DNA of 64,000 bases from Phytohabitans maris (lineage in GTDB: Bacteria > Actinomycetota > Actinomycetes > Mycobacteriales > Micromonosporaceae), in assembly GCF_031085175.1 (NCBI RefSeq), contig NZ_JAVHUY010000011.1, forward strand, positions 124,001 to 188,000, in the 5' to 3' direction. Made by a program: the position numbers and the translations under genes. This document shows positions 27,414-60,018 of this stretch, in pieces. A model generated the notes under the pieces. It was not told the origin of the DNA and did no database searches. It worked only from the letters and a program-made list of their open reading frames with translations. Within the stretch, counting starts at the first letter, position 1; every line of letters starts with the position of its first letter.

Positions 27414-27488
27414 GCCCCCGTAGCTCAGGGGATAGAGCACCGCCCTCCGGAGGCGGGAGCGCAGGTTCGAATCCTGCCGGGGGCACCA
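27414..27488 (+). tRNA. tRNA-Arg (anticodon CCG)
   Basis: Acceptor arms GCCCCCG (27414-27420) and CGGGGGC pair fully. The D-arm has AGCTCAGGGG, the anticodon loop is CTCCGGA on a CCGCC/GGCGG stem, and the T-arm is GCAGG-TTCGAAT-CCTGC. The 3' CCA is encoded. Anticodon CCG reads the Arg codon CGG, one of the frequent Arg codons here. The lower-GC region starts directly after it, consistent with tRNA genes as insertion sites. Confidence 0.97.
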
Positions 27489-44842: not shown

Positions 44843-45369
44843 GTCCGGTAGGTGAAGGCGTCAGCCCGTTTCCGGCCGGCCGGTCCGGCAGGACCCGGCT
44901 GAGCGTACGGGGGCTCACCGAGCTCCTCGTCGAACTCGTCGGCGCCGACGGGCGGGACGTCATCGTCCTCGCCATCGTGCCGCAGGAGCAGCAGCCAGCG
45001 GAGCCCGAGGGCGGCGACCGTCCCGAGGCGGGAAACCACGTGCACCGGCCGGTGGGGCTCTCCACCGCCACGGAGCGGCAGCCCGCCGACACCGAGTGGG
45101 CGAGCCTGACCGACCGCGAGCGGGCGGTGGCGTGCCTGGCCGGGCAGGCGCTGACGAACCAGCAGATCGCGCGGCGCCTGAAGATCTCGCCGCACACCGT
45201 CAACTTCCACTTGCGACGGATCTTCCAGAAGCTGGGGATCGACTCGCGGGTGAGCCTGGCCCAGATCGTCCACGCGCGACGGTCGAACATGGACCACGGG
45301 TCGCGCGCGGGCCAGCCGCCGGAGGACAGCGGGCCGCCAGAGCCGGCCGGCGGCGGCGTCAGGCGGTGA
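44839..45369 (+). CDS. LuxR-family regulator
   Basis: 176-aa protein with a C-terminal LuxR/GerE helix-turn-helix (LTDRERAVACLAGQALTNQQIARRLKISPHTV region, about 90-150). The N-terminal 80 residues show no receiver or PAS motif that I recognise. It lies at the left border of the biosynthetic cluster and converges on the aspartokinase gene with an 11-base overlap, so it is a candidate pathway regulator. Confidence 0.85.
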   Translation: MSPVGEGVSPFPAGRSGRTRLSVRGLTELLVELVGADGRDVIVLAIVPQEQQPAEPEGGDRPEAGNHVHRPVGLSTATERQPADTEWASLTDRERAVACLAGQALTNQQIARRLKISPHTVNFHLRRIFQKLGIDSRVSLAQIVHARRSNMDHGSRAGQPPEDSGPPEPAGGGVRR

Positions 45370-46585
45370 CGGGTTCCGGTCCGGGCGCAGTGGCGGGCGC
45401 CCGGTCGAGCCCGAAGGCGCGGTGCAGGACCACCGCCGCGCGCACCGTGTCGGCGGCCGGCACCACCGCCGAGACCCGCGACTGGCTGGCCCCCACCCAG
45501 CTCGGCGCGATCCCGGCGACGGCCAGCTCGGACAGCATCTGGGCGGTGAGCTGGGGGCGGCTCAGCAGCCCGGTGCCGACCAGCGAGACCTTTCCCACGG
45601 CCGCGTCGGCGACCGCCTCCCCGCCGGCGGCGGCCACCAGGCAGGCCAGCGGCTCGCGCAGCCGTGCCGCGCCGGCGGCGGTGACCGTGAAACCACAGCG
45701 CCCGGGCGCCGCAAACGCGAACAGGTCCGGCTGCACGGCCTGCTCGGCCAGCAGGTGCAGCAGGGCACCCGGCGGCACCGCGTCCGTGGTGACCAGTACC
45801 ACGTCCCGGTCGTCCGCCACCGCCACGACGCAAGAGCGCTCCTCCAGGACGTCGCGGCGGCTCTCGACCAGGGTCCCGGGCCCGTCGGACGCCGAGTCGC
45901 GCACCTCGATGTCCACTTCGGACATCTGGGCGAGCTCGACCGAGCGGGCGTGCAGCACCCGCGCTCCGGCGAACGCCAGCTCGGCCATCACGCCGGCCGG
46001 TACCACGTGCAGCAGCCGGGCCGCCGGCACGATCCGCGGGTCCGCGGTGAAGACGCCCGCGACGTCCGTGTAGATCTGGCAGGTACGCGCGCGCAGCTCG
46101 GCGGCGAGCGCCACGGCCGACGTGTCGGAGCCGCCCCGCCCCAGCGTCACCACGTCACCGGCGGCGTTCACGCCCTGAAACCCGGCGACGACCACGACGT
46201 TGCCGGCGGCGAGCAGGCTCTCCACCCGCCCGGTCCGGATCCGCTCGACCGAACCGCCGCCGTGCGGGCCGCTCACCCGGAAGCCGGCCTGGCCGCCGGT
46301 GAGGGAGACAGCGGGTACGCCCCGCTCCCGCAGCGCCATCGCCAGCAGCGCGGCGGAGGCGCACTCGCCGGTCGCCAGCAGCTGGTCGGTCTCGCGCGGG
46401 TGCGGTGCGGCGCTGACCCGGGCGGCCAGCCGCAGCAGCTCGTCGGTGGTGTCGCCGGTGGCGGAGACCACGACCACGACGGAGAGTCCGGCCGCCCGGG
46501 TGCGCGCGATCCGGTCGGCGACCATGCCGATCCGCGCCACGGTCGCCACCGAGCTGCCGCCGTACTTCTGCACCACCGTCGTCAT
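45359..46585 (-). CDS. Aspartokinase (cluster-associated)
   Basis: 408-aa kinase phosphorylating aspartate. VQKYGGSSVA opens the catalytic domain, and GRGGSDTSAVALAAEL and FTADPRIV follow. Two ACT-like regulatory domains occupy about 265-400. Placed beside a GriI/GriH pair, it should raise the flow to aspartate semialdehyde for the cluster. Whether feedback by lysine and threonine is weakened cannot be read with certainty. ATG 46585 follows GGGGGTCC. Divergent from the PhzF-like gene across a dyad at 46641-46662. Confidence 0.92.
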   Translation of the reverse strand: MTTVVQKYGGSSVATVARIGMVADRIARTRAAGLSVVVVVSATGDTTDELLRLAARVSAAPHPRETDQLLATGECASAALLAMALRERGVPAVSLTGGQAGFRVSGPHGGGSVERIRTGRVESLLAAGNVVVVAGFQGVNAAGDVVTLGRGGSDTSAVALAAELRARTCQIYTDVAGVFTADPRIVPAARLLHVVPAGVMAELAFAGARVLHARSVELAQMSEVDIEVRDSASDGPGTLVESRRDVLEERSCVVAVADDRDVVLVTTDAVPPGALLHLLAEQAVQPDLFAFAAPGRCGFTVTAAGAARLREPLACLVAAAGGEAVADAAVGKVSLVGTGLLSRPQLTAQMLSELAVAGIAPSWVGASQSRVSAVVPAADTVRAAVVLHRAFGLDRAPATAPGPEPVTA

Positions 46586-46640
46586 CTGCGGACCCCCGTT
46601 TCCGTTACGCCTCACGCTATGCGGGGCGGTGCGGCGGCGA

Positions 46641-46662
46641 CCACTACCAATGCGAGTAGTGG
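46641..46662. promoter_or_regulatory. CCACTAC-n8-GTAGTGG dyad between aspartokinase and phzF-like genes
   Basis: Seven-base perfect arms flank eight bases in the divergent promoter. The 13-mer CGAGTAGTGGCCG that ends it is repeated at 53448-53460 in the other divergent promoter of the cluster, which suggests a shared activator, probably one of the LuxR-type proteins. Confidence 0.6.
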
Positions 46663-46722
46663 CCGCGGTCCTTTGGGCTCGGCACCGTGAAAGGCATCCA
46701 CGGTCGAAGGGATGGGATCATA

Positions 46723-47493
46723 GTGAGGTTCTTCGTCGTCGACGCGTTCACCGGCAACGCGTTTTCGGGCAACCCGGCCAGCGTCGTGCTGGTCGACGGT
46801 GATTTTCCGGCGGACGGGTGGTTGCAGGCGGTGGCCGCCGAGTTCCGCCACGCGGAGACCGCGTTCGTCCGCCCGTGCGGCGAGCGCGTCTGGGACCTGC
46901 GCTGGTTTACGCCGATCGTCGAGATCGACCTGTGTGGACACGCGACGCTCGCGACCGCGCACGTGCTCGGTGGGGAGAACACGTTCCGGACCCGCGGCGG
47001 CGTGCTGCGGGCCCGGACGTCGTCGCCCGGCTGGGTGGAGCTCGACTTCCCCGCCGACCCGACCGAGCCGGTCGAGCCGAGCGCGGAGCTGCGGGCCGCG
47101 CTGGGCGGTACGGAGGTCGTGGCGGCCGGGCGGGGCCGGTACGACCTGCTCGTCCAGGTCGCCTCGGCCGAGCAGGTGCGGGAGCTCCGGCCGGACACCG
47201 AGGTGCTGGGCCGCCTGCCGTACCGGGGTGTCCTCGTCACGGCCGCCGACGGCAGCGCGAACGGTGTGGTGAGCCGCTGTTTCTACCCGGCCGTGGGCAC
47301 GCCCGAGGACCCGGCCGCCGGATCGGCGCACTGCACGATCGGCGGCTGGTGGTTCGAGCGGCTCGGCGTCGAGGAGCTCGCGGCCCGGCAGCTCTCCGCG
47401 CGCGGCGGGGCGCTGCGGGTGGCCCGGCGGGGAGACCGGATCCGCCTCAGCGGCCAGGCCGTCACGGTCATGCGCGGCGAGCTGGTCGGTTAG
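46723..47493 (+). CDS. phzF: PhzF-family isomerase
   Basis: 256-aa diaminopimelate-epimerase-fold protein. With the GTG start at 46723, the catalytic Glu falls at residue 45 (RHAETAF), exactly as in Pseudomonas PhzF. DLCGHATLATAHVL and EDPAAGSAH are the other signatures. PhzF isomerises dihydro-3-hydroxyanthranilate to an aminoketone. No PhzA/B or PhzG follows, so the product must be used differently here. GAAGGGATGG supplies the ribosome site. Confidence 0.92.
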   Translation: MRFFVVDAFTGNAFSGNPASVVLVDGDFPADGWLQAVAAEFRHAETAFVRPCGERVWDLRWFTPIVEIDLCGHATLATAHVLGGENTFRTRGGVLRARTSSPGWVELDFPADPTEPVEPSAELRAALGGTEVVAAGRGRYDLLVQVASAEQVRELRPDTEVLGRLPYRGVLVTAADGSANGVVSRCFYPAVGTPEDPAAGSAHCTIGGWWFERLGVEELAARQLSARGGALRVARRGDRIRLSGQAVTVMRGELVG

Positions 47494-48131
47494 CCGGCCT
47501 GGAGCGCGGTGACGAGATCCTGGGTGGTCGCCGTCACCGCGCACCGGCGTGCGGCGTAGTCGAGGGCCATCAAGTGGTCCTCGGCGCTGAAGTCGGCGAC
47601 CGCGTCCGCCACGAGGAACGGCTGGATGTCGTGCGAGTACGCGTCGCAGGCGGTGAGCAGGCAGCCGATGTGCGCGAATACGCCGCAGACCACGAGCTGG
47701 TCCCGCCCCATCGCGGCCAGCTCGGCGGCGAGGCGGGTGCGGTGGAACGCGCTGTACCGGTACTTGGTCACCACCAGGTCGCCGGGGCCCGGTGCGATCT
47801 CCTCGACGATCCCCCGCGCCTCGACGGCGTCCGACATCCCCTCGCCCCAGACGTCGTGGAGCAGACCGCGGTCGGCGCGCGACATCCGTCCGGGTTGGAC
47901 GGTGAAGACGACGGGGATGCCGAGCGCCGTGGCCGCCGTGCGCAGCCGGCCGACGTTGGCGAGCAGGGGCCTGATCGGCGAGCGGTCCGCCGGGAAGAAC
48001 GACACGAAGTACCGCTGCATGTCGTGGATCAGCAGCACCGCGCGGCGCGGGTCAGCACGCCACGCCGCCGGACCGGGACGCAGGTGCGCCGGCGTCGGCA
48101 TCGGGTACGGCGCGATCGTCGGGATCGGCAT
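47490..48131 (-). CDS. phzD: PhzD-like isochorismatase
   Basis: 213-aa hydrolase that cleaves 2-amino-2-deoxyisochorismate (ADIC) to dihydro-3-hydroxyanthranilate and pyruvate. It follows PhzD closely: IAPYPMPT start, catalytic D37 in VLLIHDMQRYF, GPGDLVVTKYRYSAF with the active Lys, and DIQPFLVADAVADFS. GGAG lies seven bases ahead of the ATG at 48131. It is the last gene of the six-gene minus-strand operon, overlapping the preceding monooxygenase by 80 bases and the convergent phzF by four. Confidence 0.95.
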   Translation of the reverse strand: MPIPTIAPYPMPTPAHLRPGPAAWRADPRRAVLLIHDMQRYFVSFFPADRSPIRPLLANVGRLRTAATALGIPVVFTVQPGRMSRADRGLLHDVWGEGMSDAVEARGIVEEIAPGPGDLVVTKYRYSAFHRTRLAAELAAMGRDQLVVCGVFAHIGCLLTACDAYSHDIQPFLVADAVADFSAEDHLMALDYAARRCAVTATTQDLVTALQAG

Positions 48132-49278
48132 CGAAAGGCTCCATTCGTGTGCACTGTGGACTCGGGTGGTCCCATCCGTACAGCCAGTCCTGGTCGGAGA
48201 GCCGGGCGGACGCGAGCCGGCGGTCCCGGTCGCGCTGGCGCGGCCCGTCGGGGAGGTGCAGCCAATCGGCGCCCTCCCGCACCGCCGCGAGCACGCGTTC
48301 GACGCGGGGACGGCGCAGCGCCTCGTACCGTGCCAGCCCCTCCGGGTCGCGCAGGTGCGCGGCGAGCGTCGCGGCGTCCTCGATCGCCTGCGTCGCGCCC
48401 TGCGCCAGGAACGGCAGCATCGGGTGGGCGGCGTCACCGACCAGTGCGATCCGCCCGCGCTGCCAGTGCCGCGGCGGCGGCCGGTCGAAGAGCCCGTGGT
48501 GGACCAGCGGTCCGGCGGCGAGCAGTTCGCGCACCCGCGGATGCCAGCCCTGGTAGGCCTCCGCGAGCCGCCCGGCGTCGCCGATGGCGTACCCCTCGGG
48601 CGGGCTCGTCGCCGCGACCGTGGCGACGACGTTGACCGCGTTCGAGCCGCCGACCGGATAGCTGACGCAGTGCTGCCCCGGGCCGAGCCAGACCGTGACG
48701 CGGGGCGGCCCGGCGGGCCACGGCAGCCGGTCGGCCGGTACCAGCGCGCGGTAGACGGTGTGTCCGGCGAAGCGCGGCGGATCCGTGGCGAGGGCGCGCC
48801 GCACCACCGAGTGGAGCCCGTCCGCACCCACCACGACGTCCGCGTCGTACCAGCCGCCGCCGGCAAAGCTGAGGCGCACGCCGGACGCCGACTCGTCGAC
48901 CCCGACGCACCTCTGTCCAAACCGGACCGGCCCGGCGGCGCGCAGCAACATGTGGCTCAGGTCGGTGCGGCGCAGCGTGTAGTACGGCGCCCCGTACCGC
49001 TCCCGGGCGGCCGTGCCGAGCCCGACCCGCCCGATCAGCCGGCCGTCCCGCCACCGCCGCAGTTCCCGGACGACGGGCCGGGCCGCGACGGCGCGCAGCT
49101 CGGGCTCGAGCCCGAGCCGGTGCAGGATCCGCGCGCCGTTCGGCGAGATCTGGATGCCACCGGCCACCTCGGGTGGCCCGCCGGCCCACTCGAAGACCTC
49201 GCAGCGCACGCCTTCCCGGGCGAGGCACGCGGCGGTGACCAGCCCGCCCACACCCGCACCCACCACGGCGATCCGCAT
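48052..49278 (-). CDS. FAD-dependent monooxygenase (salicylate-hydroxylase type)
   Basis: 408-aa flavoprotein hydroxylase. GAGVGGL binds FAD at the N-terminus, GADGLHSVVRRAL is the DG motif, and GDAAHPMLPFLAQGATQAIEDA the GD motif. Family members hydroxylate or oxidatively decarboxylate aromatic acids. In this operon it may act on an aminobenzoate or the condensed product. ATG 49278 uses GGAGAG; a GTG 15 bases earlier is possible. The long 80-base overlap with phzD implies strict coupling. Confidence 0.9.
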   Translation of the reverse strand: MRIAVVGAGVGGLVTAACLAREGVRCEVFEWAGGPPEVAGGIQISPNGARILHRLGLEPELRAVAARPVVRELRRWRDGRLIGRVGLGTAARERYGAPYYTLRRTDLSHMLLRAAGPVRFGQRCVGVDESASGVRLSFAGGGWYDADVVVGADGLHSVVRRALATDPPRFAGHTVYRALVPADRLPWPAGPPRVTVWLGPGQHCVSYPVGGSNAVNVVATVAATSPPEGYAIGDAGRLAEAYQGWHPRVRELLAAGPLVHHGLFDRPPPRHWQRGRIALVGDAAHPMLPFLAQGATQAIEDAATLAAHLRDPEGLARYEALRRPRVERVLAAVREGADWLHLPDGPRQRDRDRRLASARLSDQDWLYGWDHPSPQCTRMEPFDADPDDRAVPDADAGAPASRSGGVAC

Positions 49279-49302
49279 CTCCGCACTCTCCACTTCGGAC
49301 TG

Positions 49303-50595
49303 TCAGTAGTAGCTCAGCGCCTTGTCCCAGTCCTCGTCCTCGCGGAAGAGGCCGCGCGGCTTCATCACGTCGGCGCTCGCGGTCAGCAGCGAGAGCGGCA
49401 CGAGCCGGCCCGGCGGCACGCCGACCACCTCGGCGTCGATGCCGTAGGTGCGACCGACCGCCGCCACGAGCGCGGCGACGGCCGGGGCCCGGTGCGGCTC
49501 GGCCACCTCGATCTCGACGCGCAGGTGGCTGCTGGCCGCCCTGGCCCGCCAGAAGAGCACGCCGAACTCGGCCGGTAGCCCGAAGACGAGCTCCTCCAGC
49601 CCGGTCTGGGTGAGCGGTACGCCGCCGGCGCGGCTCTGAAACGCGGTGCGGCCGAGCACCCGGACGGTGGGGAGCGACCAGCCGCACCCGCAGGCGCCGT
49701 ACGCCACCTCGACCTCGTCCTCCATGTTGTACCGCAGCAGCGGCATCGCCTCGCGGAAGAGCGGCGTGACGACGAGCTGGCCCCGGCCCTCCGGCGCGGT
49801 ACGGCCGGTCAGCGGGTCGTACACCTCGAAGAGCGCGCGATCGGCCCACAGGTGCAGCCGGCCGCACGGGCACTCGCCGGCGAGGCTGCCGGTCTCCGTC
49901 GCGCCGTACTCCTCCACGACCGGCGCGCCCCACAGCGCGGCGATCCGGTCCCGGCGGGCCGGGCTGAGCGGTTCGCCGCCGACGAAGAGCGCGCGCAGCG
50001 CGGGGAAGTCCCGGTCGGGCCGGGCACCGGCGGCCGCCGCGGCAGCCGCCCAGAGCAGCGTGTCGGTCGGCAGCGACCAGGTCACCGTGACGTCCAGGTC
50101 GCGCAGCACCCGGACGACCCGGGAGTACGGCATGGCCAGCGAGCGGTTGTCCGCCGGCACGACCGTCGCGCCGCACATGCGGGCCGCGGCGTGCGCGAGA
50201 TGGCCGGTGATCATGAGGGCGTACGGCGTGCGGACCAGGAACATGTCGCTCGGCTCGATCGCGATCCGCTTGCGCGCGAACCGCTCGGCCAGGTCCAGCC
50301 AGTCCCCCGCCGTGTAGTACGACGACGTCGGCGCCCCGCTGCTCCCGCTCGACTCGTGGTACGTGGCGAGTTCGGCGCGGTCGACCGCGAGGAGCCCGAA
50401 CGGGTACGCGTCGCGCAGGTCCCGCTTCGTGGTCAGTGCCACCTGCCGCAGCTCGGCGCGGTTGGTCGGCACGTCCCCCCGCGCCCGGTAGAACGGGGAG
50501 CGCGCCGCGACCCGCAGCGCCTCCGCCAGGTGGACGTCCTGGAGCCGGGTCAGCTCCGCGTACCCGCGCCAGTCTCCGATCCGCGGCCGGTCCAT
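49303..50595 (-). CDS. PaaK-like adenylate-forming ligase
   Basis: 430-aa ANL-superfamily ligase that activates an aryl acid with ATP. Phosphate loop SSGSSGAPTSS (82-92), adenine motif EEYGATETG (about 228-236), a CPCG/CGCG cysteine set that may hold a metal, and the C-terminal catalytic Lys in DVMKPRGLF. It is close in size and style to phenylacetate-CoA ligases. Next to an amidohydrolase it matches the two-enzyme benzoxazole pair known from nataxazole and A33853. GAGGAGGAG precedes the ATG. Confidence 0.88.
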   Translation of the reverse strand: MDRPRIGDWRGYAELTRLQDVHLAEALRVAARSPFYRARGDVPTNRAELRQVALTTKRDLRDAYPFGLLAVDRAELATYHESSGSSGAPTSSYYTAGDWLDLAERFARKRIAIEPSDMFLVRTPYALMITGHLAHAAARMCGATVVPADNRSLAMPYSRVVRVLRDLDVTVTWSLPTDTLLWAAAAAAAGARPDRDFPALRALFVGGEPLSPARRDRIAALWGAPVVEEYGATETGSLAGECPCGRLHLWADRALFEVYDPLTGRTAPEGRGQLVVTPLFREAMPLLRYNMEDEVEVAYGACGCGWSLPTVRVLGRTAFQSRAGGVPLTQTGLEELVFGLPAEFGVLFWRARAASSHLRVEIEVAEPHRAPAVAALVAAVGRTYGIDAEVVGVPPGRLVPLSLLTASADVMKPRGLFREDEDWDKALSYY

Positions 50596-51344
50596 GTCTC
50601 CTCCTCTCCGAGCAGCCGGCGGGCGTTCGCCGACATCACCAGGTGCCGGTCCGCCCGGCTCATCTCGACGGCCGCGAGCTTCACGACCTCCACGCGCGGG
50701 TGCTGGAGCGGGTACTCGGTGCCGAACACCACCCGCTCCGCCCCGAGCCGCCGCAGTGCCAGCCCGGCGACCGCCGTGTAGCAGCCGGACGTCTCGGCGA
50801 CGATGTTCGGGCACGGCGCGATCTCGGCCAGGCCGCTCGCGTCGAGGCCCGTGTGTCCACAGTGTCCGTACACGAAGGACACCTGCGGGAAGCGCCGGGC
50901 GAGGGCGGCAAGGTCGCCGGCGCGCGTGCCCGGGTGGGCGAGGCAGACCACGTAGACCGGGTGCCGGGCGGCGGCCGCGATCTCGACGAGCTCGTCCACC
51001 GCCGGGTCGTCGAGGCGAAACCCGTGCACCGCGGGGGAGATCTCCAGCCCGCGGTGGCCCGGCGCAGCCGCCCGGTACGCGGCGACGTCCCGCCACGGGT
51101 CGGCGAGAAAGAACGGCAGGAGCCGCCCGGCGGTACCGCCGCAGATCGCCCGGACGCGCTCGTTGTCGGCCGCCACCTCGCTGCGACCGCCGCGGGCCAC
51201 CTGCGCGGAGAGGCGGTCGAGGTCCAGCAGGCCGCCGGCGGAGACGGCGGCCCGCTCGATGCCGGTGCGGTCCATGGCCGCGAGCAGCGCGCCCGCGGCC
51301 TCCGGACCGGGCCCCAGCCGGGCGTGGAAGTCGAACACGTTCAC
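50550..51344 (-). CDS. Amidohydrolase-2 family protein, candidate benzoxazole cyclase
   Basis: 264-aa TIM-barrel amidohydrolase of the ACMSD-like group. Visible metal/active-site segments are VYGHCGHTG and the late VVFGTEYPLQHP. The first motif reads FDFHAR where DxHxH is usual, so one N-terminal His is replaced by Arg. In benzoxazole pathways a zinc amidohydrolase runs in reverse, removing water from an ester/hemiorthoamide to close the ring. GTG overlaps the stop of the previous gene (GTGA), and its end overlaps the ligase start by 46 bases. Confidence 0.82.
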   Translation of the reverse strand: MNVFDFHARLGPGPEAAGALLAAMDRTGIERAAVSAGGLLDLDRLSAQVARGGRSEVAADNERVRAICGGTAGRLLPFFLADPWRDVAAYRAAAPGHRGLEISPAVHGFRLDDPAVDELVEIAAAARHPVYVVCLAHPGTRAGDLAALARRFPQVSFVYGHCGHTGLDASGLAEIAPCPNIVAETSGCYTAVAGLALRRLGAERVVFGTEYPLQHPRVEVVKLAAVEMSRADRHLVMSANARRLLGEEETWTGRGSETGAGTRS

Positions 51345-52543
51345 TGCTCGTGGCAGAACTCGTCGATGGGATAGCCGACGTGGCGTTCCCGCCGCGGGAG
51401 GTGGCCGAGGATCTGGTCGCCGGGCCGGAGCGCGGTCGAGTTCAGCACGGCCGCGCCCGGGCCGAGGATCCGTACGTGCCAGTCGTCCTGCACGATCACG
51501 TTGACCCGCTCGCCGTCGTCGGAGACCGCGTCGATGGAGAGCAGCGGGCGGGTCTCGATCTTCACCCGACCGACGATCGCGTGCCGGGTACGCCCGTCCG
51601 CCCCGACCGCCAGCACGGTGTCGCCCGCGCCGAGCTCGCTCAGGTACCGCGTGTGCTCCGGGTCGGCGAGGGTGTACGACATGATCGCGCCGGCGTTCAC
51701 CCGGAAGGGTCGGGTCGGCATGTACGGCAGCGGATGCGTCTCGCTGACGCAGAGCACCATCCCCTTGGCCCGCGAGCCGACCAGGATGCCCTCGTCCTTC
51801 TCCAGGTAGGTGCAGGTGTCGACGCAGGCCCGTTCCCCCATGCCGGCGTGGGTGATCGCGGTGACCGTGAGCGTGACCAGCTTGAGCGCCTCCGGCTTGC
51901 TCGTCACGACGTCCCGCAGGCGGGCCGCCTCGCCCGGCGCGGTCGGGGCCAGCATGAGCCCGCCCGGCCCGTGTTCGAGCACCCCGAGGTGCACCGGCGC
52001 GTCGGCCACCCGGTCCATCGCGGTGATGATCAGGCCGGGGGCCGCCGCGCCGGGACGGTGGGTGGCCGCCGCGGCCGCGAGCACGATCTCCAGCGGGATG
52101 TTGGTCGGGTCGCGGAAGCGGAGCACCGTGCACTCGTACCGCCGGACGCTCGCGCACGCCCGCTCCAGGCTCTCCTTGTCGGTGACTTCCACGTACACGC
52201 CGAACCGCCGGTCCGGGTGCCGCTGCGCCAGCTCCTCCGGCGTTCCGTGCACGACCGGGTCGACCACGACCAGGTCGGCCACGCCGAAGTCCGCCGGCAG
52301 GTCGGCGCCGGAGGGCAGGAGCACGCGGGTGACCGCCGGCGGCAATGGCGCCAGGTCCGCGGGATCCGCCGCGACGATCGCGTCGAACCCGTGGTGCAAC
52401 GCCTCTTGGCAGAGCGCCGCGGTGAATTCACCGGCGGATCGGATGTCGAGCCAGCACTGCTTCAACGCCTGCTCTCCTTTCATCGAGCGACCTTTCGTCA
52501 GGTCGGCTTTCGTCGGCTCGGCTTTCATCTGGTCGCTTTTCAT
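51341..52543 (-). CDS. 3-dehydroquinate synthase II (GriH-like)
   Basis: Up to 400 aa. It belongs to the archaeal-type dehydroquinate synthase II family, which includes GriH of grixazone biosynthesis, with KQCWLDIR, VLRFRDPTNIPLEI, GMGERACVDTCTYLEKDEGILVGS and ETHPLPYMPTRPFRVNAGA. Paired with the aldolase it would produce 3-amino-4-hydroxybenzoate. Two starts are possible. ATG 52543 overlaps the aldolase stop (ATGA) and adds a repeated Lys/Asp-rich stretch. TTG 52465 follows AAGGAGAG and begins MKQCWLDIR like family members. Confidence 0.93.
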   Translation of the reverse strand: MKSDQMKAEPTKADLTKGRSMKGEQALKQCWLDIRSAGEFTAALCQEALHHGFDAIVAADPADLAPLPPAVTRVLLPSGADLPADFGVADLVVVDPVVHGTPEELAQRHPDRRFGVYVEVTDKESLERACASVRRYECTVLRFRDPTNIPLEIVLAAAAATHRPGAAAPGLIITAMDRVADAPVHLGVLEHGPGGLMLAPTAPGEAARLRDVVTSKPEALKLVTLTVTAITHAGMGERACVDTCTYLEKDEGILVGSRAKGMVLCVSETHPLPYMPTRPFRVNAGAIMSYTLADPEHTRYLSELGAGDTVLAVGADGRTRHAIVGRVKIETRPLLSIDAVSDDGERVNVIVQDDWHVRILGPGAAVLNSTALRPGDQILGHLPRRERHVGYPIDEFCHEQ

Positions 52544-53343
52544 CGGGCCCCTCCCAAGACCGTGGAAGCCGTCCGGTCGTGGACGAGCGCGGCGATCCGG
52601 CGGGCCGCCGCCGCTGGATCCGCGGCGGTGAAGACGAGGCGCCCGGCGGCGATGCCGCCCGCGCCGGACCGCATCGCGTCGGCGAGGTGGCGCAGCGCGT
52701 CGTCCGGGCCGGGCGAGGGGGCGCCGCCGGCCGCGAGGACCGGCACCGGGCAGCTCGCGGTGACCGCGGCGATCCCGGCCGCCGAGGCGGGCAGGGACGA
52801 TTTGACCAGGTCCGCGCCGAGGTCGGCCGCGATGACGGCCGCGTGGGCCACGAGCTCCGGCGCGCGTCCGTCGGCGACCTGCGGTCCGCGCGGATACAGC
52901 ATCGCAAGCAGGGGTACGCCCCAGCGGTCACTCGCCTCGGCGACGGCGGCCAGGTCGGCGATCTGCCGCCCTTCAGTCTCCGATCCGACATTGACGTGCA
53001 CGCTCACCGCGTGCGCGCCGAGCCGCAGCGCTTCCTCCACAGAGGACACGAGGTACTTGGCGTCGGGATCGGGGGCCCGGCGGGTGCTCGCGCTCAGGTG
53101 GACGATCAGCGACAGCGACCGGAACCAGCGGGGGTCGAGGTGCCGGAGCGCGCCCTTGTGCAGCACGATCGCGTCCACGCCGTTCCCGGCAAGTTGCCCG
53201 ACCAGCCGGTTGAGCTGGCCGCTCCGGGTGATCGGACCGTCGGTCACGGAATGGTCGAGCGGTACGACGAAAAGGCTTGAAGAATCGTGCCGGTACAGAT
53301 GCTGTAGCCGGATGCGACTCCCGACCGTATTGTTTAGTGTCAT
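52540..53343 (-). CDS. Class I aldolase / ADH synthase (GriI-like)
   Basis: 267-aa DhnA-type aldolase. D30-H31 (PLDHS), Y150 and the Schiff-base K181 (DLVKSS) agree with the archaeal 2-amino-3,7-dideoxy-threo-hept-6-ulosonate synthase and with GriI. In the grixazone route GriI condenses aspartate semialdehyde with DHAP and GriH cyclises the product to 3-amino-4-hydroxybenzoate. It is the first gene of the minus-strand operon, so it sets the carbon entry. The promoter lies in 53344-53491. Confidence 0.93.
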   Translation of the reverse strand: MTLNNTVGSRIRLQHLYRHDSSSLFVVPLDHSVTDGPITRSGQLNRLVGQLAGNGVDAIVLHKGALRHLDPRWFRSLSLIVHLSASTRRAPDPDAKYLVSSVEEALRLGAHAVSVHVNVGSETEGRQIADLAAVAEASDRWGVPLLAMLYPRGPQVADGRAPELVAHAAVIAADLGADLVKSSLPASAAGIAAVTASCPVPVLAAGGAPSPGPDDALRHLADAMRSGAGGIAAGRLVFTAADPAAAARRIAALVHDRTASTVLGGAR

Positions 53344-53420
53344 TTCCGCTCCTCGGCGAGCGCAATTAGCGACATGCGAAAAACGTTAAGTGCTCGGCCG
53401 GCCCCCGCCCATAACGCGAA

Positions 53421-53460
53421 TGAGTAGGCGGGTAGGTACCGCGTGTTCGAGTAGTGGCCG
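53421..53460. promoter_or_regulatory. GAGTAG repeats in the aldolase/phzE divergent promoter
   Basis: GAGTAGG (53422-53428), GGGTAGG (53430-53436) and CGAGTAGTGGCCG (53448-53460) follow one another in about 40 bases. The last 13-mer is identical to part of the dyad at 46641-46662. It probably marks the binding site of a cluster regulator. Confidence 0.55.
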
Positions 53461-53491
53461 GCGTGGCGCGGGAAATGCCACCGTGAGGGCC

Positions 53492-53576
53492 ATGACCGAG
53501 CGTAGCGAGGGAATCATTGGGCACAGGGCGCTTGGAGTCTCGCGGCCGCCCGCAGCGAAGCGAGGACGGCCGTGAG
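53492..53576 (+). repeat. Dispersed SD/start-codon-bearing element, copy 2
   Basis: Second copy of the element at 40410. The last 38 bases (53539-53576) are identical to copy 1, and the left part is about 80 percent alike by eye. It again ends GAGGACGGCCGTGAG and supplies the ribosome site and GTG start of the following gene, here the phzE-like gene. Confidence 0.85.
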
Positions 53577-55449
53577 CGACTTCAGGTCCGTACTGGTGAA
53601 CGGCGCGCCGGCGTTCGCGCTGCTGTCCCGCCCCCGCTCCGGCGGTGGCGACCGGCTCGAGGTGTTCGTGGGCGACCCGGTCGAGGTCGCGACGCTGGCC
53701 GGCCTACCGGCGGCGACGGAGCGCCTGCTCGCCCTCGTGCCGTACCGGCAGATCCGGGAGCGGGGTCTGGCCTGTGTGGACGATGGCGAGCCGCTGGTGG
53801 CCATCGAGGTCCGCGCGCACGGCGAACTCCCCGTCGAAGAGGCGCTGCGGCTGCTCCCGGTGGACGGCGCGCGCCTCGACGGTGGCGCCTTCGACGTGGA
53901 CGACGCCGCGTACGAGGCGGTGATCCGGCGGGTCGTCGCCGAGGACATCGGCCGGGGCGCGGGCTCCAACTTCGTGGTCCGCCGCACCTTCCACACCGCC
54001 CTGCGGGACCCGTCGCCGCGCACCCGGCTGGCCATCTTCCGCCGCCTCCTCGCCGCGGAGACCGGTGCCTACTGGACGTTTCTCGTGCATTGGAACGGGC
54101 GCACGCTCGTCGGCGCGACGCCCGAATGCCACGCCCGCCTCGACGGTGGCGTCGCCACGATGAACCCGATCAGCGGCACCTACCGCTACCCCGAGTCCGG
54201 CCCCACGCGCGGCGGGCTGCGCCGCTTCCTGGCCGACCGCAAGGAGACCGAGGAGCTCCTGATGGTGGTCGACGAGGAACTCAAGATGATGGCCCGGGTC
54301 TGCGCCGGCGGCGGGCGGCTGCACGGGCCGTTCCTGCGGCCGATGTCCCGCCTGGCCCACACCGAGTACACCATCTCTGGACCGTCCAACCTGGACGCTC
54401 GTGAGGTGCTCCGGCTCACCATGCCGGCCCCGACGGTGACCGGCAGTCCGCTCGCCAGCGCCTGCCGCGTGGTGGCCGCACACGAGCGGTCCGGTCGCGG
54501 GTACTACGGCGGCGCGCTGGCCCTGATCGACCGGCGCGGCATGGACGCGGCGCTGCTCATCCGGACCGCCGACATCGGCGTGGAGGGCAACGTACGCATC
54601 CCTGTGGGCGCAACGCTGGTGCGCCATTCCGACCCGACGGCGGAAGCGGCCGAGACCCGGGCAAAGGCGGAGGCACTGCTGCGCGCGCTCGGCGGCCAGC
54701 CGGTCGCGCCGGCGGGCGAACCCGGGCGCGAAATCCCCGTCGGCTACCGGCTCCGCCGCGCTTTGGCCACCCGCAACCGGGGACTGTCGGGTTTCTGGCG
54801 CGGGCGGGAGCGACCCCGCCCGGCACCGTCACTGGCCGGCCGGCGGCTGCTGCTGATCGACGCCGAGGACGACTTCACCGCGATGCTCGCCACCGTCGCC
54901 GCGTCGACCGGCCTGTCCGTGGAGGTACAGCGATTTGACCGGGACCTGCCCAGCGAAGCGGACCTCGTGCTCGTCGGCCCGGGGCCCGGCGATCCCCTCG
55001 ACCGCACGGATCCCCGGATCGCACGGCTGCACGAGGTGACCCGGAGCCTCCTCGCCGCCGGTACGCCGTTCCTGGCGGTGTGCCTCGGCCACCAGGTGCT
55101 CGCGGACGAGCTCGGGCTAGCCGTACGCCGCCTGAAGACGCCCCGGCAAGGCTTGCAGCAAACGATTTCCCTGTACGGCCGGCCGGAGCGGGTGGGCTTC
55201 TACAACACGTTCGCGGCGGCGAGCGGGGCGGACCGCGTGTACTGCCCGTTCACCGGCGACCCGGTGGACGTCCGGCGCGATCCGGCCACCGGCGTCGTGC
55301 ACGCCTTGGCCAAGCCGCGGATGCGCTCGACCCAGTTCCACATGGAGTCGGTGCTGACAGAAAACGGACCAGCGATCCTCCGCCGAATGATGATCGAACT
55401 CGTGACAGAGTCCGGCAGAGTCACCACGGCCGCCGGAGTCCGCGCGTAG
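53572..55449 (+). CDS. phzE: PhzE-like ADIC synthase (fused glutamine amidotransferase)
   Basis: 625-aa chorismate-utilising enzyme. Residues about 1-400 are the anthranilate-synthase-I-like half (MNPISGTYRYPESGP, TEYTISGPSNLDAREVLRLTMPAPTVTGSP). Residues about 420-610 are a class I glutaminase with nucleophile C504 in CLGHQ and H590/E592 in QFHMES. The fused order and the PhzD partner point to 2-amino-2-deoxyisochorismate, not anthranilate. The ribosome site and GTG come from the dispersed element. Confidence 0.94.
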   Translation: MSDFRSVLVNGAPAFALLSRPRSGGGDRLEVFVGDPVEVATLAGLPAATERLLALVPYRQIRERGLACVDDGEPLVAIEVRAHGELPVEEALRLLPVDGARLDGGAFDVDDAAYEAVIRRVVAEDIGRGAGSNFVVRRTFHTALRDPSPRTRLAIFRRLLAAETGAYWTFLVHWNGRTLVGATPECHARLDGGVATMNPISGTYRYPESGPTRGGLRRFLADRKETEELLMVVDEELKMMARVCAGGGRLHGPFLRPMSRLAHTEYTISGPSNLDAREVLRLTMPAPTVTGSPLASACRVVAAHERSGRGYYGGALALIDRRGMDAALLIRTADIGVEGNVRIPVGATLVRHSDPTAEAAETRAKAEALLRALGGQPVAPAGEPGREIPVGYRLRRALATRNRGLSGFWRGRERPRPAPSLAGRRLLLIDAEDDFTAMLATVAASTGLSVEVQRFDRDLPSEADLVLVGPGPGDPLDRTDPRIARLHEVTRSLLAAGTPFLAVCLGHQVLADELGLAVRRLKTPRQGLQQTISLYGRPERVGFYNTFAAASGADRVYCPFTGDPVDVRRDPATGVVHALAKPRMRSTQFHMESVLTENGPAILRRMMIELVTESGRVTTAAGVRA

Positions 55450-55480
55450 CGCGTCTTCATCCGGTGGCGCCCCCGTTGCC

Positions 55481-55540
55481 GTTAAGCAAGTGAGCGATCT
55501 ACGGACGGCGCTGGCGAGGTCGGCCGAAAGGTTGCTTAAC
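55481..55540. promoter_or_regulatory. Inverted repeat upstream of the LAL regulator
   Basis: GTTAAGCAA (55481-55489) and TTGCTTAAC (55532-55540) are perfect nine-base arms, with AGTGA/TCACT partly extending the symmetry. The site lies between phzE and the regulator gene. It could be an operator or a terminator for phzE; the 42-base loop favours an operator pair. Confidence 0.5.
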
Positions 55541-55598
55541 TGGATCACTTCCATCTATCACAATCTGCGCTGGGTTGCCGTAACAAGATCCCCGGGGG

Positions 55599-58367
55599 GT
55601 GGATCCGCTGACGACTTTCGGTCGCGATGAAGAACAAGCGATCTTGCGAAAGGCGTTCGCTGACACGGCACGGGGGGTTGGCGGGTGTGTGGTGCTGACC
55701 GGTGCGGCCGGCATCGGCAAGTCACACCTGCTGCGTGCGGCGGTCGAAGAGGCCCGGGCCGACGGGCTGGCGGTGGCTACCCGGGCGGCGTTCGAGCTCG
55801 ATCGGGCGGCGCCGTTCATCACGCTCGCGTCGGCCTTGCAGCAGATCGAGCCGGCGACGTCCGCGTTCGACTGGATCGCCGATACGGGTGAAAGCCAGTT
55901 CCAGACGCTCGACCGGCTCGCCGGGGCGCTGGAAGACTTCGTGGCGGAGCGGCCGCTGGTCATCGCGATCGACGATGCACAGTGGACGGACGAGTTCTCC
56001 GCGCTGGCGATGCGGGAGCTGGTGACCGCGCTGGCCTCCTCGCCGGTGCGGTGGCTGTTCGCCCGCCGGCCGCGGCAGGAGGCCACACCCGGGCAGCAGC
56101 TGGTCGATCGGCTGATCCGGGAGGGTACGCCGGAGATCGTGCTGGGCCGGCTGGACGAGGGGGCGGTGGCCGGGCTCTGCTCCCAGGCCGTCGGCGCCCG
56201 GGTCGACAACACCGTGCTGGCGTTGGCGGCCGGCTGTGACGGCAGCCCGTTGCAGCTGGAGCAGCTGATGCGGGCGCTGCTGAACACGCGGCAGCTGCTG
56301 ATCCGGGACGGCGTCGCGACGGTGGTCGGTGACCAGCTGCCGTCGAGCTTCATCACGATCGTGGAGCAGACGCTGAGCAGCCTGTCGGAGCAGACGCGGC
56401 GGATGCTCGAGGCCGGCAGCGTGCTGCACGGCCGGTTCAGCGCCGACACGCTCGCGCGGCTGCTCGGCACCCGGCCGGCGGCACTGCTGCCCTCGCTCTA
56501 CGAGGCCACCTCCGCCAAGGTGCTCGTCGACGAGGGAGACGGCCTCGCGTTCGGGCACGATCTGGTCCGCAAGGCGATCTACGGCACGGTCGGCGGTGCC
56601 GCCAAGGCGCTCTACCACCGGGAGGCGGCGGTCGTCGGCCGGGAGGAGGACCGCTCGCCGGTCGAGGTGGCCGAGCACCTGCTGCGCAGCGGCCGATCCA
56701 CCCGGGAGGCGGCGACGATGCTGCGCGAGGCCGCGCTGGAGGTCGCGCCGGCGGCGCCGAGCACCGCCGCCGACCTGATGGTCCACGCCCTCGACGTGCT
56801 CGGCGCCGACGACCCGGACCGGCCCGAGCTGGCCGCCGACACCGTGGGCCTGCTCGCCCGCGCGGGCCGGCTGGAGCGGGCGCAGCGGCTCGGCGAGGCG
56901 GCGCTGTACACCGGGCTGGAGCCGCCCACCGAAGCGGCGCTGCTGCTCGGGCTGGCCGAGGCGTTCAAGCACGCGGGCCGCAACCGCTCCGCCGTGGAGT
57001 ACGCCTCGCGGGGGCTGAGCTACCCGGACGTGCCGGAGGCGGTGCGGGCCAGGCTCTGGGCGGTCCGCGCGCACGCCCTCTTCTACACCGGCGACCTGAC
57101 CGGCACCGACCGCTCCGGCACCAGCGCGTACCGGTCCGGGATGGCGGCCGAGGAGTACGGGGCGGCGGTCTTCGGGCTCACCGCCCGCACCCTGGCCGCG
57201 CAGGCCGAGGGGCGCCTGGACGACGCGCTCGCGCACGCCACCGAGGCCACCGAGATCGCCGACGGGATACGGGGCGAGGCGGCGCACTGGCACCCCCGGA
57301 TCTGGCTCGGTGACGCCCAGGCCGCGCTCGACCGGTTCGAGGAGGCCTCGGCCACGTTCCGCCGCGGGCGGGAGGAGTCCGAGCGGCTCGGCACCGCCTG
57401 GTCCACGCCGCTGTGGCACTACTACCACGCCGCCCTGCTGGCCGCCTCCGGACGGCTCGACGAAGCGGTCGCGGAGACCGACGCCGGCGTCAAGATCGCC
57501 GAAACCCACGCCGCGTACGCGCTGGCCGTACCGCTGCTGGCCGGGCAGGCCCGGCTGTCCGTCCTGCGCGACGACACGGCACAGGCCCGGGAGTACATCG
57601 GCCGGATGCGCCACTGGCTGGCCGAGGGCATCACCACCGCGCCCGAGGACGCGACCTGGGCCGAGGGGATGCTGCTGGAGGCGACCGCCGGCCCGGACGC
57701 CGCGCTGCAGACCCTCACCGTCATCTACGACGCGATGCCCCGCCGGTCGCTGCTGCTCGTCCAGGACCCCGGCGCCGCCGCCACACTGGTGCGCGTAGCG
57801 CTCCTGGCCCACTCGCCCGAACGGGCCGAGGTGGTCGCCACCACCGCCAGCGATCTCGCCGACCGCAACCCGACCGTGCAGGCCCTCACCGCGGCCGCCG
57901 CGCACGCCGAGGGCCTGCTCCGCCGCGACCTGGGCCTGCTCCGAGAGGCGATCGACGGGTACCGGGGCATCCGCCGCCCCCTCGCCCTGGCCGCCGCCCT
58001 CGAAGACGCCGCCGACGCCACCCCCGACCCGGTCCGCGCCCGCAAGCTCGCCGAGGAGGCGCTGGCGATCGCGACCGACTGCGGCGCCGAACGGGCCCGG
58101 CGCCGGCTGGAGCAGCGCCTCGGCCGTGAACGCGTCCGGCAGTCCGCGCCGCCGTCCGTGCTCGAGCGGCTCTCGCCAGCGGAACGACCCGTCGCAATCC
58201 TGGTCGCAAGGGGACGAAGTAACCGCGAAATCGCCGAAGAGCTCTTCCTCTCCCGGCATACCGTCGACAGCCACTTGCGGAAGATATTCGTGAAACTCGG
58301 CATCAACAACCGTTCCGTACTGGCCCGGCTGGTCGGAGACGAAGGCAGCAATAGCGCAAGCACGTGA
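55599..58367 (+). CDS. LAL-type (large ATP-binding LuxR) regulator
   Basis: 922-aa pathway activator. Walker A GAAGIGKS (35-42), Walker B-like LVIAIDDAQW near 115-125, a long TPR-like helical middle, and a LuxR helix-turn-helix at the C-terminus (LSPAERPVAILVARGRSNREIAEELFLSRHTV region, about 860-915). LAL proteins commonly activate their own antibiotic cluster. GTG start at 55599 after a G-run. Confidence 0.93.
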   Translation: MDPLTTFGRDEEQAILRKAFADTARGVGGCVVLTGAAGIGKSHLLRAAVEEARADGLAVATRAAFELDRAAPFITLASALQQIEPATSAFDWIADTGESQFQTLDRLAGALEDFVAERPLVIAIDDAQWTDEFSALAMRELVTALASSPVRWLFARRPRQEATPGQQLVDRLIREGTPEIVLGRLDEGAVAGLCSQAVGARVDNTVLALAAGCDGSPLQLEQLMRALLNTRQLLIRDGVATVVGDQLPSSFITIVEQTLSSLSEQTRRMLEAGSVLHGRFSADTLARLLGTRPAALLPSLYEATSAKVLVDEGDGLAFGHDLVRKAIYGTVGGAAKALYHREAAVVGREEDRSPVEVAEHLLRSGRSTREAATMLREAALEVAPAAPSTAADLMVHALDVLGADDPDRPELAADTVGLLARAGRLERAQRLGEAALYTGLEPPTEAALLLGLAEAFKHAGRNRSAVEYASRGLSYPDVPEAVRARLWAVRAHALFYTGDLTGTDRSGTSAYRSGMAAEEYGAAVFGLTARTLAAQAEGRLDDALAHATEATEIADGIRGEAAHWHPRIWLGDAQAALDRFEEASATFRRGREESERLGTAWSTPLWHYYHAALLAASGRLDEAVAETDAGVKIAETHAAYALAVPLLAGQARLSVLRDDTAQAREYIGRMRHWLAEGITTAPEDATWAEGMLLEATAGPDAALQTLTVIYDAMPRRSLLLVQDPGAAATLVRVALLAHSPERAEVVATTASDLADRNPTVQALTAAAAHAEGLLRRDLGLLREAIDGYRGIRRPLALAAALEDAADATPDPVRARKLAEEALAIATDCGAERARRRLEQRLGRERVRQSAPPSVLERLSPAERPVAILVARGRSNREIAEELFLSRHTVDSHLRKIFVKLGINNRSVLARLVGDEGSNSAST

Positions 58368-58434
58368 TGCGTAATCGGCCGCCATCCCCAAGCATTGCCA
58401 TGTGACGCCGACGTCACTGTGTCTGCGACAGGGG

Positions 58435-60018
58435 GTGGACCTCTTGGCTACGCCAGCACTACGTACCGAGGTACTCGTGGTGGGAGCCGGGGCGGTTGGT
58501 GCAATTCTCGCTTTGGAATTGGCACATCACAATGTCGCATGCATTGTGGTCGAACGGGCGGTGACCGGGCCACGCCATCCGGGCCTGGACTTCCTGGCCG
58601 GGCGCAGCATGGAGCTGCTGCGCCGGCTCGGGCTGACGGAGCTGATCCGCGAGCACGGCGTCAGCCCCGACCACCCGACCGGCCTGGAGTGGAGCCAGGG
58701 GCTCGACGACCCGCCGATCCTCGTCTCGCCCGGCGGCCCGGCCGGCGTGGAGTCCGACGACGGCGGCGGCCCGGCCGAGAGCCACCAGCTGGTGTCCGGC
58801 GCCCAGCTCGCCAAGCAGCTGCGCGACGCCGTGCGCCGGCATCCCCTGGTCGACCTCCGTGAGGGCTGGACGTTCACCGGCATGCGGGTCGAGCCGGACG
58901 GCGCGGTGGCCGAGCTGGTCGAGGTGGGCAGCGGCGACCGCCACTTCGTCGAGGCGCGCCACGTGGCCGGCTGCGACGGTGCGCACAGCACGGTGCGGCG
59001 CTGCCTGGAGGTGCCGATGGAGCAGCTGGCCGCCCCGGCGCGGCACTGCTCGGTGTACTTCCGGAACGAGGACCTCACCCGCCGCTTCGCCCGGCGCGGC
59101 CTCTCCACGGTCATCGTCGGCGGCGTGGCGCTCGTGGCGCGGGGCGACCACGACACCTGGGTCGGGCACCTCGGCCTCGCGCCCGACGAGCCGATCACCA
59201 CGGACCCGGTCGCCATGCTCCGCGCGATGCTCGGCGTACGGCTGGACGCGACCGAGGTGCTCGGCGTGACCCAGTGGGACGACTCGCTGGCGGTGGCGAC
59301 CACCTACCAGCGCGGTCCGGCCTACCTGGTCGGGGAGGCCGCCCACCGGTTCCACCCGGTGACCGACAGCGCCGACATCAGCATCGGCGACGCGATCGAC
59401 CTCGGTTGGAAGCTCGCCGCGGTGATCAACGGCTGGGGCGGTCCGGGCCTGCTCGCCAGCTACGAGCTGGAGCGGCGCCCACGCGCGTTGATCGACCGGG
59501 AGATGCTGGCCCGGTCGCTGGAGACCCGGCGCAGGTTCAGCCGGCTGGCCAAGGCCGGCGCGACCCGCGAGTTGCTCGCCGAGGTGTTGCAGCAGGAGCC
59601 GCACCTGCTCGGCACCGCGGGTGTCCAGGTCGGCGACCGGCTCGCCTCCTCGGTCATCTGGGCCGACGACCGTCCACAGTGGCCGGGGCCGGACGAGGCG
59701 CCGCCCACGATCGCGCCGGGCGGGCGGCCACCGGCGGTACGGCTGGCCGACGGCTCGCAGCTCTTCGACCGGCTGGGGCTGGAGCTGACGCTGGTCGACC
59801 TGACCGACGACGACGCCGGCCGGCCGCTCGTCGACGCCGCCCGCGAGCGCGGGATCCCGATGGCACACCTTGTCACCACGGATCCGGCCGTCCGTGCCCG
59901 GTGGGATCACCCGTTGGTGCTCGTACGGCCAGATCAGCACGTCGCGTGGCGTTCGGGAGCCGCGCCGGACGACTGGGACACCGTGCTCGATCTGGTTACG
60001 GGGCGTAAGACCACGTGA
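58435..60018 (+). CDS. FAD-dependent aromatic hydroxylase (PgaE/RdmE type)
   Basis: About 527-aa flavin hydroxylase. FAD motif GAGAVG near the start, GCDGAHSTVRR, and GEAAHRFHPVTDSADISIGDAIDLGWKLAAV, in which Glu replaces the usual Asp of GDAAH. The C-terminal 120 residues form the thioredoxin-like cap seen in polyketide hydroxylases. It is the second hydroxylase of the cluster and is downstream of the LAL gene. Start uncertain: GTG 58435, TTG 58444 behind GGGGGTGG, or GTG 58402. Confidence 0.88.
   Translation: MDLLATPALRTEVLVVGAGAVGAILALELAHHNVACIVVERAVTGPRHPGLDFLAGRSMELLRRLGLTELIREHGVSPDHPTGLEWSQGLDDPPILVSPGGPAGVESDDGGGPAESHQLVSGAQLAKQLRDAVRRHPLVDLREGWTFTGMRVEPDGAVAELVEVGSGDRHFVEARHVAGCDGAHSTVRRCLEVPMEQLAAPARHCSVYFRNEDLTRRFARRGLSTVIVGGVALVARGDHDTWVGHLGLAPDEPITTDPVAMLRAMLGVRLDATEVLGVTQWDDSLAVATTYQRGPAYLVGEAAHRFHPVTDSADISIGDAIDLGWKLAAVINGWGGPGLLASYELERRPRALIDREMLARSLETRRRFSRLAKAGATRELLAEVLQQEPHLLGTAGVQVGDRLASSVIWADDRPQWPGPDEAPPTIAPGGRPPAVRLADGSQLFDRLGLELTLVDLTDDDAGRPLVDAARERGIPMAHLVTTDPAVRARWDHPLVLVRPDQHVAWRSGAAPDDWDTVLDLVTGRKTT

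Follow-up and report, generated by a model that had tools for sequence, protein, structure and literature searches.

A conserved actinomycete gene cluster with two precursor routes in Phytohabitans that may make an unprenylated dibenzodiazepinone core

Diazepinomicin (BU-4664L, ECO-4601, TLN-4601) has been studied in a phase II anticancer trial; its ring A comes from 3-hydroxyanthranilate (3-HAA), as established by feeding, and its cluster (dzm) holds PhzE-, PhzD- and MxcC-like genes and, beside HMG-CoA synthase, the 296-aa dzmP (PMC3871700). The compound is listed among the products of the chorismate/dihydro-3-hydroxyanthranilate (DHHA) pathway (PMC5958127). The benzoxazoles nataxazole, AJI9561, caboxamycin and microechmycin draw on the same route (PMC5481532, PMC9864271), microechmycin (mich) being proposed to arise from 3-HAA only (PMC9864271), and the closoxazoles (clx, pfx) use 3-amino-4-hydroxybenzoate (3,4-AHBA; PMC12118335). 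Here we describe a cluster in a 64,000-nt stretch of the 9.87-Mb genome of Phytohabitans maris (contig NZ_JAVHUY010000011.1; G000:C3:124001-188000), hereafter the window, that holds genes for both precursor routes. We put at about 0.55 the probability that its product is the dibenzodiazepinone-type tricycle at the core of diazepinomicin, lacking the farnesyl tail. Such a product would tie a widespread actinomycete cluster family to a rare core and would suggest that ring B originates from 3,4-AHBA; the locus also displays a natural loss of the DHHA dehydrogenase in a cluster that kept PhzE and PhzD.

Both precursor routes are supported by family matches, as the initial annotation of the window had claimed. 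For 3,4-AHBA there is a DhnA/DeoC-type aldolase of the GriI/BagB type (52540-53343, minus strand; 1.7e-44, BagB_FevI 1.1e-101) and a 3-dehydroquinate synthase II-like protein (DHQS-II; 51341-52543, minus; 4.2e-102, BagC_FevH 2.6e-151), a putative 3,4-AHBA synthase of the GriH/BagC type. The BagB_FevI and BagC_FevH matches both fall under curated cut-offs, and we take the two proteins to be counterparts of GriI and GriH. For DHHA there is a PhzE-like 2-amino-2-deoxyisochorismate (ADIC) synthase with chorismate-binding and glutamine amidotransferase parts (53572-55449, plus; PhzE 3r74 3.1e-171, spanning residues 4-619 of its 625) and a PhzD-like isochorismatase predicted to turn ADIC into DHHA (47490-48131, minus; PhzD 1nf9 1.5e-65), which retains an Asp replaced by Ala in entry 1nf8. 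An adenylating ligase (49303-50595, minus), a 264-aa Amidohydro_2-fold protein (50550-51344, minus; family match 5.3e-24) and two FAD hydroxylases (48052-49278, minus; 58402-60018, plus) accompany them. Every gene named in the initial annotation was present by codon-position GC signal and family matches, and gene calls and family scans bore out that inventory. Its picture of mostly one overlapping operon held for the minus-strand run of aldolase, DHQS-II, amidohydrolase, ligase, hydroxylase 1 and PhzD, in which the genes overlap or leave short gaps, and failed for the PhzF-family gene, the aspartokinase, PhzE, the LuxR-type regulator and hydroxylase 2.

Using the amidohydrolase as query against 200 genomes of the family (E 0.001), we found matches in 95, of which 34 matches in 33 genomes had at least 48% identity. 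Loci were gathered as 20 regions, then as 41 named loci from a contig scan, then as 13 more cluster regions. The tree input was 60 loci (the 41 named, five of the first 20 regions, the 13 later ones and the window; the other 15 of the first regions were the same places as named loci), and dropping L101, L103 and L104 as exact duplicates left 57, the window and 56 relatives. Ten loci (L060, L061, L063, L069, L070, L075, L076, L094, L106 and L109) span less than 20 kb, so that a gene not seen in one of them may be located beyond its end. The aldolase and DHQS-II stand alongside the ligase and amidohydrolase in 55 of the 57 loci (L074 and L088 are the exceptions), the order of these core genes recurs, and PhzE, PhzD, a short-chain dehydrogenase (SDR) and hydroxylase 1 are all found in 27. 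Hosts are Phytohabitans, Dactylosporangium, Actinoplanes and kin, Micromonospora, Streptomyces, Nocardiopsis, Rhodococcus and one Bdellovibrionaceae metagenome-assembled genome. The gene combination is thus conserved among the 57 loci and not without precedent. With the shorter loci included, the tree calls for 8 state changes for the SDR and 11 for PhzD, and we claim single losses nowhere outside a nine-row clade described below. Two Winogradskya clusters (L061, L062) keep the SDR, and the top PhzE match outside the cluster adjoins a PhzD match (L131, L129), an arrangement that we read as a split pathway.

The link to diazepinomicin runs through two other Phytohabitans loci. The P. suffuscus locus L097, with its flanks L160 and L161, encodes a 296-aa ABBA prenyltransferase (PF11468, 2.5e-62) whose neighbours are HMG-CoA synthase, diphosphomevalonate decarboxylase, polyprenyl synthases and a class-II DAHP synthase. 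In P. houttuyneae (name inferred), L098 (flanks L162, L163) holds by Pfam a 296-aa ABBA prenyltransferase (8.5e-60) and a GHMP kinase, adjoined by similar, unscanned open reading frames (ORFs). Both loci share with the window the aldolase, DHQS-II, amidohydrolase, ligase, hydroxylase 1 and a related hydroxylase 2, and their arrangement matches the dzm layout. From species and position they are apparently the clusters called diazepinomicin-like in a 2020 study, which reported one in each of these species (PMC7692728). The statement in the initial annotation that no described cluster combines both routes is thereby weakened, and a described cluster with the same genes and a known product is at hand for the core genes, by inference.

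A prenyltransferase is visible in 3 of the 56 tree relatives (L084, L086, L089); L097 and L098 needed extra flanks, and a 20-kb view misses distant prenylation genes. With the P. suffuscus prenyltransferase as query at 1e-10, matches appeared in the genomes of P. suffuscus (G057), P. houttuyneae (G103), G031 and G206, and none in those of the window, P. flavus (G091), G106, G064, G095, G114 and G121, seven of the 11 genomes searched. Queries for HMG-CoA synthase, mevalonate genes, polyprenyl synthase and DAHP synthase found no match in the window and two adjoining 20-kb stretches. Compared with dzm, the window has the PhzE- and PhzD-like ring-A genes in common, lacks the MxcC/EntA-like SDR, the ABBA prenyltransferase (DzmP) and the mevalonate genes, and adds a PhzF-like gene. 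It is a variant, without prenylation genes and DHHA dehydrogenase, of the kind of cluster whose core apparently occurs in diazepinomicin-type loci.

From these gene families we infer a pathway to the dibenzodiazepinone core. The aldolase and DHQS-II would make 3,4-AHBA from aspartate semialdehyde and triose phosphate. Hydroxylase 1 would exchange the carboxylate of 3,4-AHBA for a hydroxyl group, and hydroxylase 2 would add another to give 2-amino-6-hydroxy-1,4-benzoquinone, ring B. Hydroxylase 1 matches tropone 2-monooxygenase (8rqh, 2.1e-76), the '4-hydroxybenzoate decarboxylase' 8gsm (9.8e-65) and the 'decarboxylative vanillate 1-hydroxylase' 8x38 (6.6e-59), its best NCBIfam row being 3-hydroxybenzoate 6-monooxygenase, below the cut-off of that family; we propose that it carries out the oxidative decarboxylation. 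Hydroxylase 2 is RebC-related (RebC 1.8e-45; FAD_binding_3 1.7e-47), and we propose ring hydroxylation for it. DHHA would be formed from chorismate by PhzE and PhzD; in most sister clusters the SDR would then oxidise it to 3-HAA, ring A. The NatL2-like ligase would adenylate the ring-A acid and couple it to ring B, with an altered amidohydrolase assisting the coupling or ring closure. Where the SDR is missing, as in the window, ring A would be aromatised by a siderophore-type EntA-like SDR encoded elsewhere in the genome; alternatively, PhzF-like isomerisation followed by oxidation would aromatise it, or it would stay partly reduced.

On our understanding of the ring chemistry, 3,4-AHBA would presumably yield 2-amino-6-hydroxybenzoquinone by oxidative decarboxylation at C1 and hydroxylation at C5, whereas 3-amino-5-hydroxybenzoate needs hydroxylation at C4, so that the genes present favour 3,4-AHBA. 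Ring B of diazepinomicin itself may therefore derive from 3,4-AHBA and not from 3-amino-5-hydroxybenzoate. No aminotransferase of the 3-amino-5-hydroxybenzoate-synthase kind was found among the 16 flank and cluster ORFs scanned at L097 and L098, which are not every ORF there. A 3,4-AHBA origin for ring B was not found in the diazepinomicin literature covered, outside which most subscription papers lie.

Several points weigh against a dibenzodiazepinone product. In published proposals ring B originates from 3-amino-5-hydroxybenzoate (PMC3871700, PMC6524458), a speculation of 2008 as told in PMC3871700. The diazepinomicin ion was not observed in extracts of four Phytohabitans strains (PMC7692728), and no diazepinomicin was obtained from the S. 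griseoflavus cluster (PMC3871700), and any product ascribed to the Phytohabitans loci is accordingly putative. The link to dzm was drawn from gene content and layout by way of the Phytohabitans loci, not from dzm sequence. The prenylated-type loci and the window lie on different branches of the tree, with hydroxylases 2 just 37-38% identical, and the substrates and order assigned to both hydroxylases are extrapolated from distant relatives. Finally, four Actinoplanes-type loci (L065, L068, L071, L072) keep the core, both hydroxylases and the regulator without PhzE, PhzD or SDR; their product should be built from 3,4-AHBA only, and the core alone may make such a product. The genomes of these four loci hold one PhzE homologue each (50-51% identity), probably the primary anthranilate synthase; the corresponding PhzD search covered the loci.

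The initial annotation had predicted a benzoxazole or a related ester or amide, made by a ligase of the NatL2 type and an amidohydrolase of the NatAM group. The comparison with NatL2 came out as predicted. The ligase is 60% identical to NatL2 and 59% to AjiA1, and when aligned to it retains Arg156, which serves the acceptor carboxylate, Trp178, Glu235, Lys418 and the Cys3His of the structural zinc site; the residues kept include the Glu through which NatL2 touches the 3-OH of the donor (residue functions from PMC7204872). Ala211-Ala212 beside the acceptor is Gly-Gly in the window, and the residue named Arg68 in that paper does not coincide with an Arg in the numbering used here. Its BagE_FevW score of 546 bits is below the curated cut-off of 800. 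These features support an enzyme of the NatL2/AjiA1/BagE kind, predicted to join amino-hydroxy ring acids. At NatL2 position 235, L090, L091, L093, L094 and L109 have Asp; as a donor marker the Glu/Asp choice proved weak, because clusters that lost PhzE and PhzD keep Glu.

The amidohydrolase, by contrast with the prediction, falls outside the NatAM group: it has 264 aa against about 495, gives no PDB sequence match at E 0.001 and has putative metal ligands replaced, which takes away the second support of the benzoxazole prediction. Its AlphaFold2 model is a confident barrel (mean pLDDT 94.0, pTM 0.91) with aromatic-acid decarboxylases and uncharacterised amidohydrolases as fold neighbours; the 50 rows listed belong to one superfamily, and NatAM is not among them, which excludes nothing. 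In NatAM the zinc ligands are His75, His77 and His253, and a His290Ala mutant is dead (PMC7204872). We assigned the corresponding columns by motif pattern and strand position, with no direct NatAM alignment, and a structure alignment covered 37 of 42 amidohydrolases. By this assignment the putative metal-ligand positions are replaced in the window at H7-x-R9, E101 and V133 and kept at H161 and E210. The H-x-H, Lys and His of beta-strands 1, 4 and 5 are kept in 4 of the 57 loci (L091, L093, L094, L109), none with PhzE, PhzD or SDR in view. The remaining 53 have H-x-R, Glu, and Val or Ala, among them all 46 loci with any PhzE, PhzD or SDR gene and seven without those genes, a distribution that takes one change on the tree. 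H161, which appears to be the kept beta-6 His (NatAM His290), and E210 are invariant. The pattern suggests that the putative metal ligands of this amidohydrolase, a supposed condensing enzyme, were replaced together. An H-type amidohydrolase query against 396 genomes of the phylum gave one match at 1e-35, the window's own, and thus added no further H-type example.

A benzoxazole is consequently a less likely product than the dibenzodiazepinone core, and on our estimate an unlikely one. It would require the ligase to esterify 3,4-AHBA with 3-HAA, or two like acids, and the amidohydrolase to dehydrate the ester, as NatL2/NatAM or the closoxazole enzymes do. The ligase with its kept zinc site suits this route, as does H161. 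So does the resemblance to the closoxazole set of aldolase, DHQS-II, amidohydrolase and ligase (PMC12118335), a comparison outside which the ClxD and PfxB sequences lie; moreover, L090, L091, L093 and L094 hold those four genes with no match for PhzE, PhzD, SDR or hydroxylase. The closoxazole clusters have two AMP ligases, whereas the window has one among the ORFs scanned between 37 and 61 kb, adds the chorismate route and the hydroxylases, and has the replaced amidohydrolase site, which is shared by every locus with a DHHA-route gene. The core also shares loci with diazepinomicin-type prenylation genes, and the two hydroxylases would be without a role in the simplest benzoxazole. Against the nataxazole group, with which it has the ligase type and the chorismate/DHHA route in common, the window lacks a NatAM-type amidohydrolase and a DHHA dehydrogenase and has, in addition, the 3,4-AHBA route and two hydroxylases. 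The literature covered, again with most subscription papers outside it, yielded no mixed benzoxazole made from 3,4-AHBA plus 3-HAA. The bagremycin and ferroverdin clusters share BagB/BagC/BagE-type aldolase, DHQS-II and ligase with the window, at scores below curated cut-offs; the partner there is p-vinylphenol, and the main text of PMC6692506 mentions no amidohydrolase.

We then consider how the dibenzodiazepinone reading fares without the DHHA dehydrogenase. In many relatives the SDR sits between hydroxylase 1 and PhzD. Five scanned examples are short-chain dehydrogenases, and by position and ending the relatives' SDRs look like EntA/DHHA dehydrogenases. The SDR is present in 37 of the 57 loci; with two relatives' SDRs as tblastn queries (E 1e-3) none was found in the window, as the initial annotation had noted. 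PhzE and PhzD are kept without an SDR in eight loci: the window, those of P. flavus and P. suffuscus, and the Dactylosporangium loci L058, L060, L063, L064 and L067. Together with the SDR-holding L066 they form the nine-row clade (SH-aLRT support 94, by a quick method). We scored SDRs across whole genomes, those of the eight loci included; for 8 of the 11 genomes compared, scoring stopped at candidate 150, and in G064 it took in all 114. In four of the eight, P. flavus, G064, G121 and G114, the best SDRs are only 41-44% identical, for P. flavus, G121 and G114 among the first 150 candidates; the case for no close SDR in these three is strong but not absolute. The window genome has an EntA-like SDR elsewhere (56%, C23:20177-20932), and the best matches in G095 and G106 reach 67% and 68%; each of these three adjoins isochorismatase- and isochorismate-synthase-like matches, as in siderophore loci. 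G106 has, in addition, a 58% SDR match beside PhzD- and PhzE-like matches elsewhere, and in P. suffuscus the second cluster, L097, holds an SDR.

Convergent with PhzD, the PhzF-family gene (46723-47493) lies on the opposite, plus strand and for that reason was rejected as an operon member. Its product belongs to the general subfamily (1s7j 3.9e-38; TIGR00654 1e-29), scoring 134.5 bits to E. faecalis 1s7j against 47.6 bits to phenazine PhzF 1u1v, the phenazine branch being the more distant in sequence. It is 32% identical to a phenazine-locus PhzF (L130) and keeps the aligned Glu, His and Asp, which we take to be catalytic. Identity is 91% to the P. flavus and 95% to the P. suffuscus protein, the next best among the 200 genomes being 63%. 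The gene occurs in 3 of 6 Phytohabitans genomes, exactly those with an SDR-less cluster. A helix-turn-helix and macro-domain protein adjoining the cluster (43486-44487, minus) is found in the same three; since it shares the pattern, presence alone is no proof of a role for the PhzF-like protein. In P. houttuyneae (G103) the syntenic locus (L156, L157; G103:C4:370000-409999) keeps hydroxylase 2, the regulator and the neighbouring 202-aa gene and has no match at 1e-10 for the stretch from PhzE through the macro-domain gene, PhzF included. The PhzF-like gene therefore lies inside a block gained or lost together, and the G103 locus represents either a site that was filled only in part or one that underwent a natural deletion.

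The absence of the dehydrogenase and the presence of the PhzF-like gene may both be incidental, a tentative view whose odds overlap with those of the dibenzodiazepinone core, with which it is compatible. A 2,3-dihydro-2,3-dihydroxybenzoate dehydrogenase from the siderophore locus would then make 3-HAA, and PhzF would be an unrelated neighbour. The EntA-like SDR of the window genome in its siderophore-type setting fits, and after loss of cbxG, caboxamycin production can still draw on entA (PMC5481532). Relatives of PhzF with 58-63% identity in four genomes have no cluster gene adjoining them in the stretches fetched (neighbours were listed for three). Against it, a stand-in EntA is not general, since four genomes with SDR-less clusters have no SDR above 44% among the candidates scored; the restriction of the PhzF-like gene to the three SDR-less Phytohabitans genomes also speaks against coincidence, with the macro-domain gene following the same pattern. 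The initial annotation had PhzF giving DHHA a non-phenazine fate: the gene is neither in the operon nor of the phenazine branch, and PhzF may still act on DHHA. It is doubtful, though conceivable, that in SDR-less clusters DHHA, or in Phytohabitans a PhzF-made isomer, is itself the building block of a partly reduced tricycle (a dihydro-dibenzodiazepinone), coupled or closed by an amidohydrolase-fold enzyme with an Arg/Glu pair in place of the metal site; one core would then give aromatic and reduced versions through loss of one dehydrogenase. Far less probable is a phenazine or phenoxazine, for which an aminoketone formed from DHHA by PhzF would dimerise or would condense with a 3,4-AHBA-derived aminophenol. 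PhzE, PhzD and a PhzF-family protein with Glu, His and Asp are present, but PhzA/B has no match in the window genome (positive control Streptomyces aculeolatus, G206, 2.5e-83; one match below cut-off in G114), its absence having been noted before for the window; the PhzF-like protein is distant from its phenazine-locus counterpart, and the ligase and amidohydrolase would be left without a role.

The aspartokinase (45359-46585; Pfam AA_kinase 5e-48, NCBIfam aspartate kinases) is a separate minus-strand gene beyond the PhzF-family gene and has no match in the P. flavus locus (L024/L056); it would supply aspartate semialdehyde for 3,4-AHBA. On the plus strand, divergent from the minus-strand run, PhzE and hydroxylase 2 are joined by a LuxR regulator of the large ATP-binding (LAL) type (55599-58367; AAA_16 2.3e-21, GerE 1.6e-13), the one LAL gene in an interval for which several LuxR/LAL regulators had been listed, and by a gene adjoining hydroxylase 2 for a 202-aa all-helical conserved protein (60094-60702), a possible TetR-like regulator. 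The latter has a Pfam match in none of 15 family members, and Foldseek placed TetR proteins in its top rows at a best E of 0.15, not significant. A plasmid collection held no relatives of the amidohydrolase or ligase. Elsewhere in the window, a 679-aa ORF (27790-29829, plus) without Pfam or PADLOC match lies just downstream of a tRNA gene (27414-27485) in a GC dip (57% against about 72%) and looks like recently acquired DNA, and an L31-Actinobacteria ribosomal-protein leader RNA (3070-3138, minus) scores above the gathering score.

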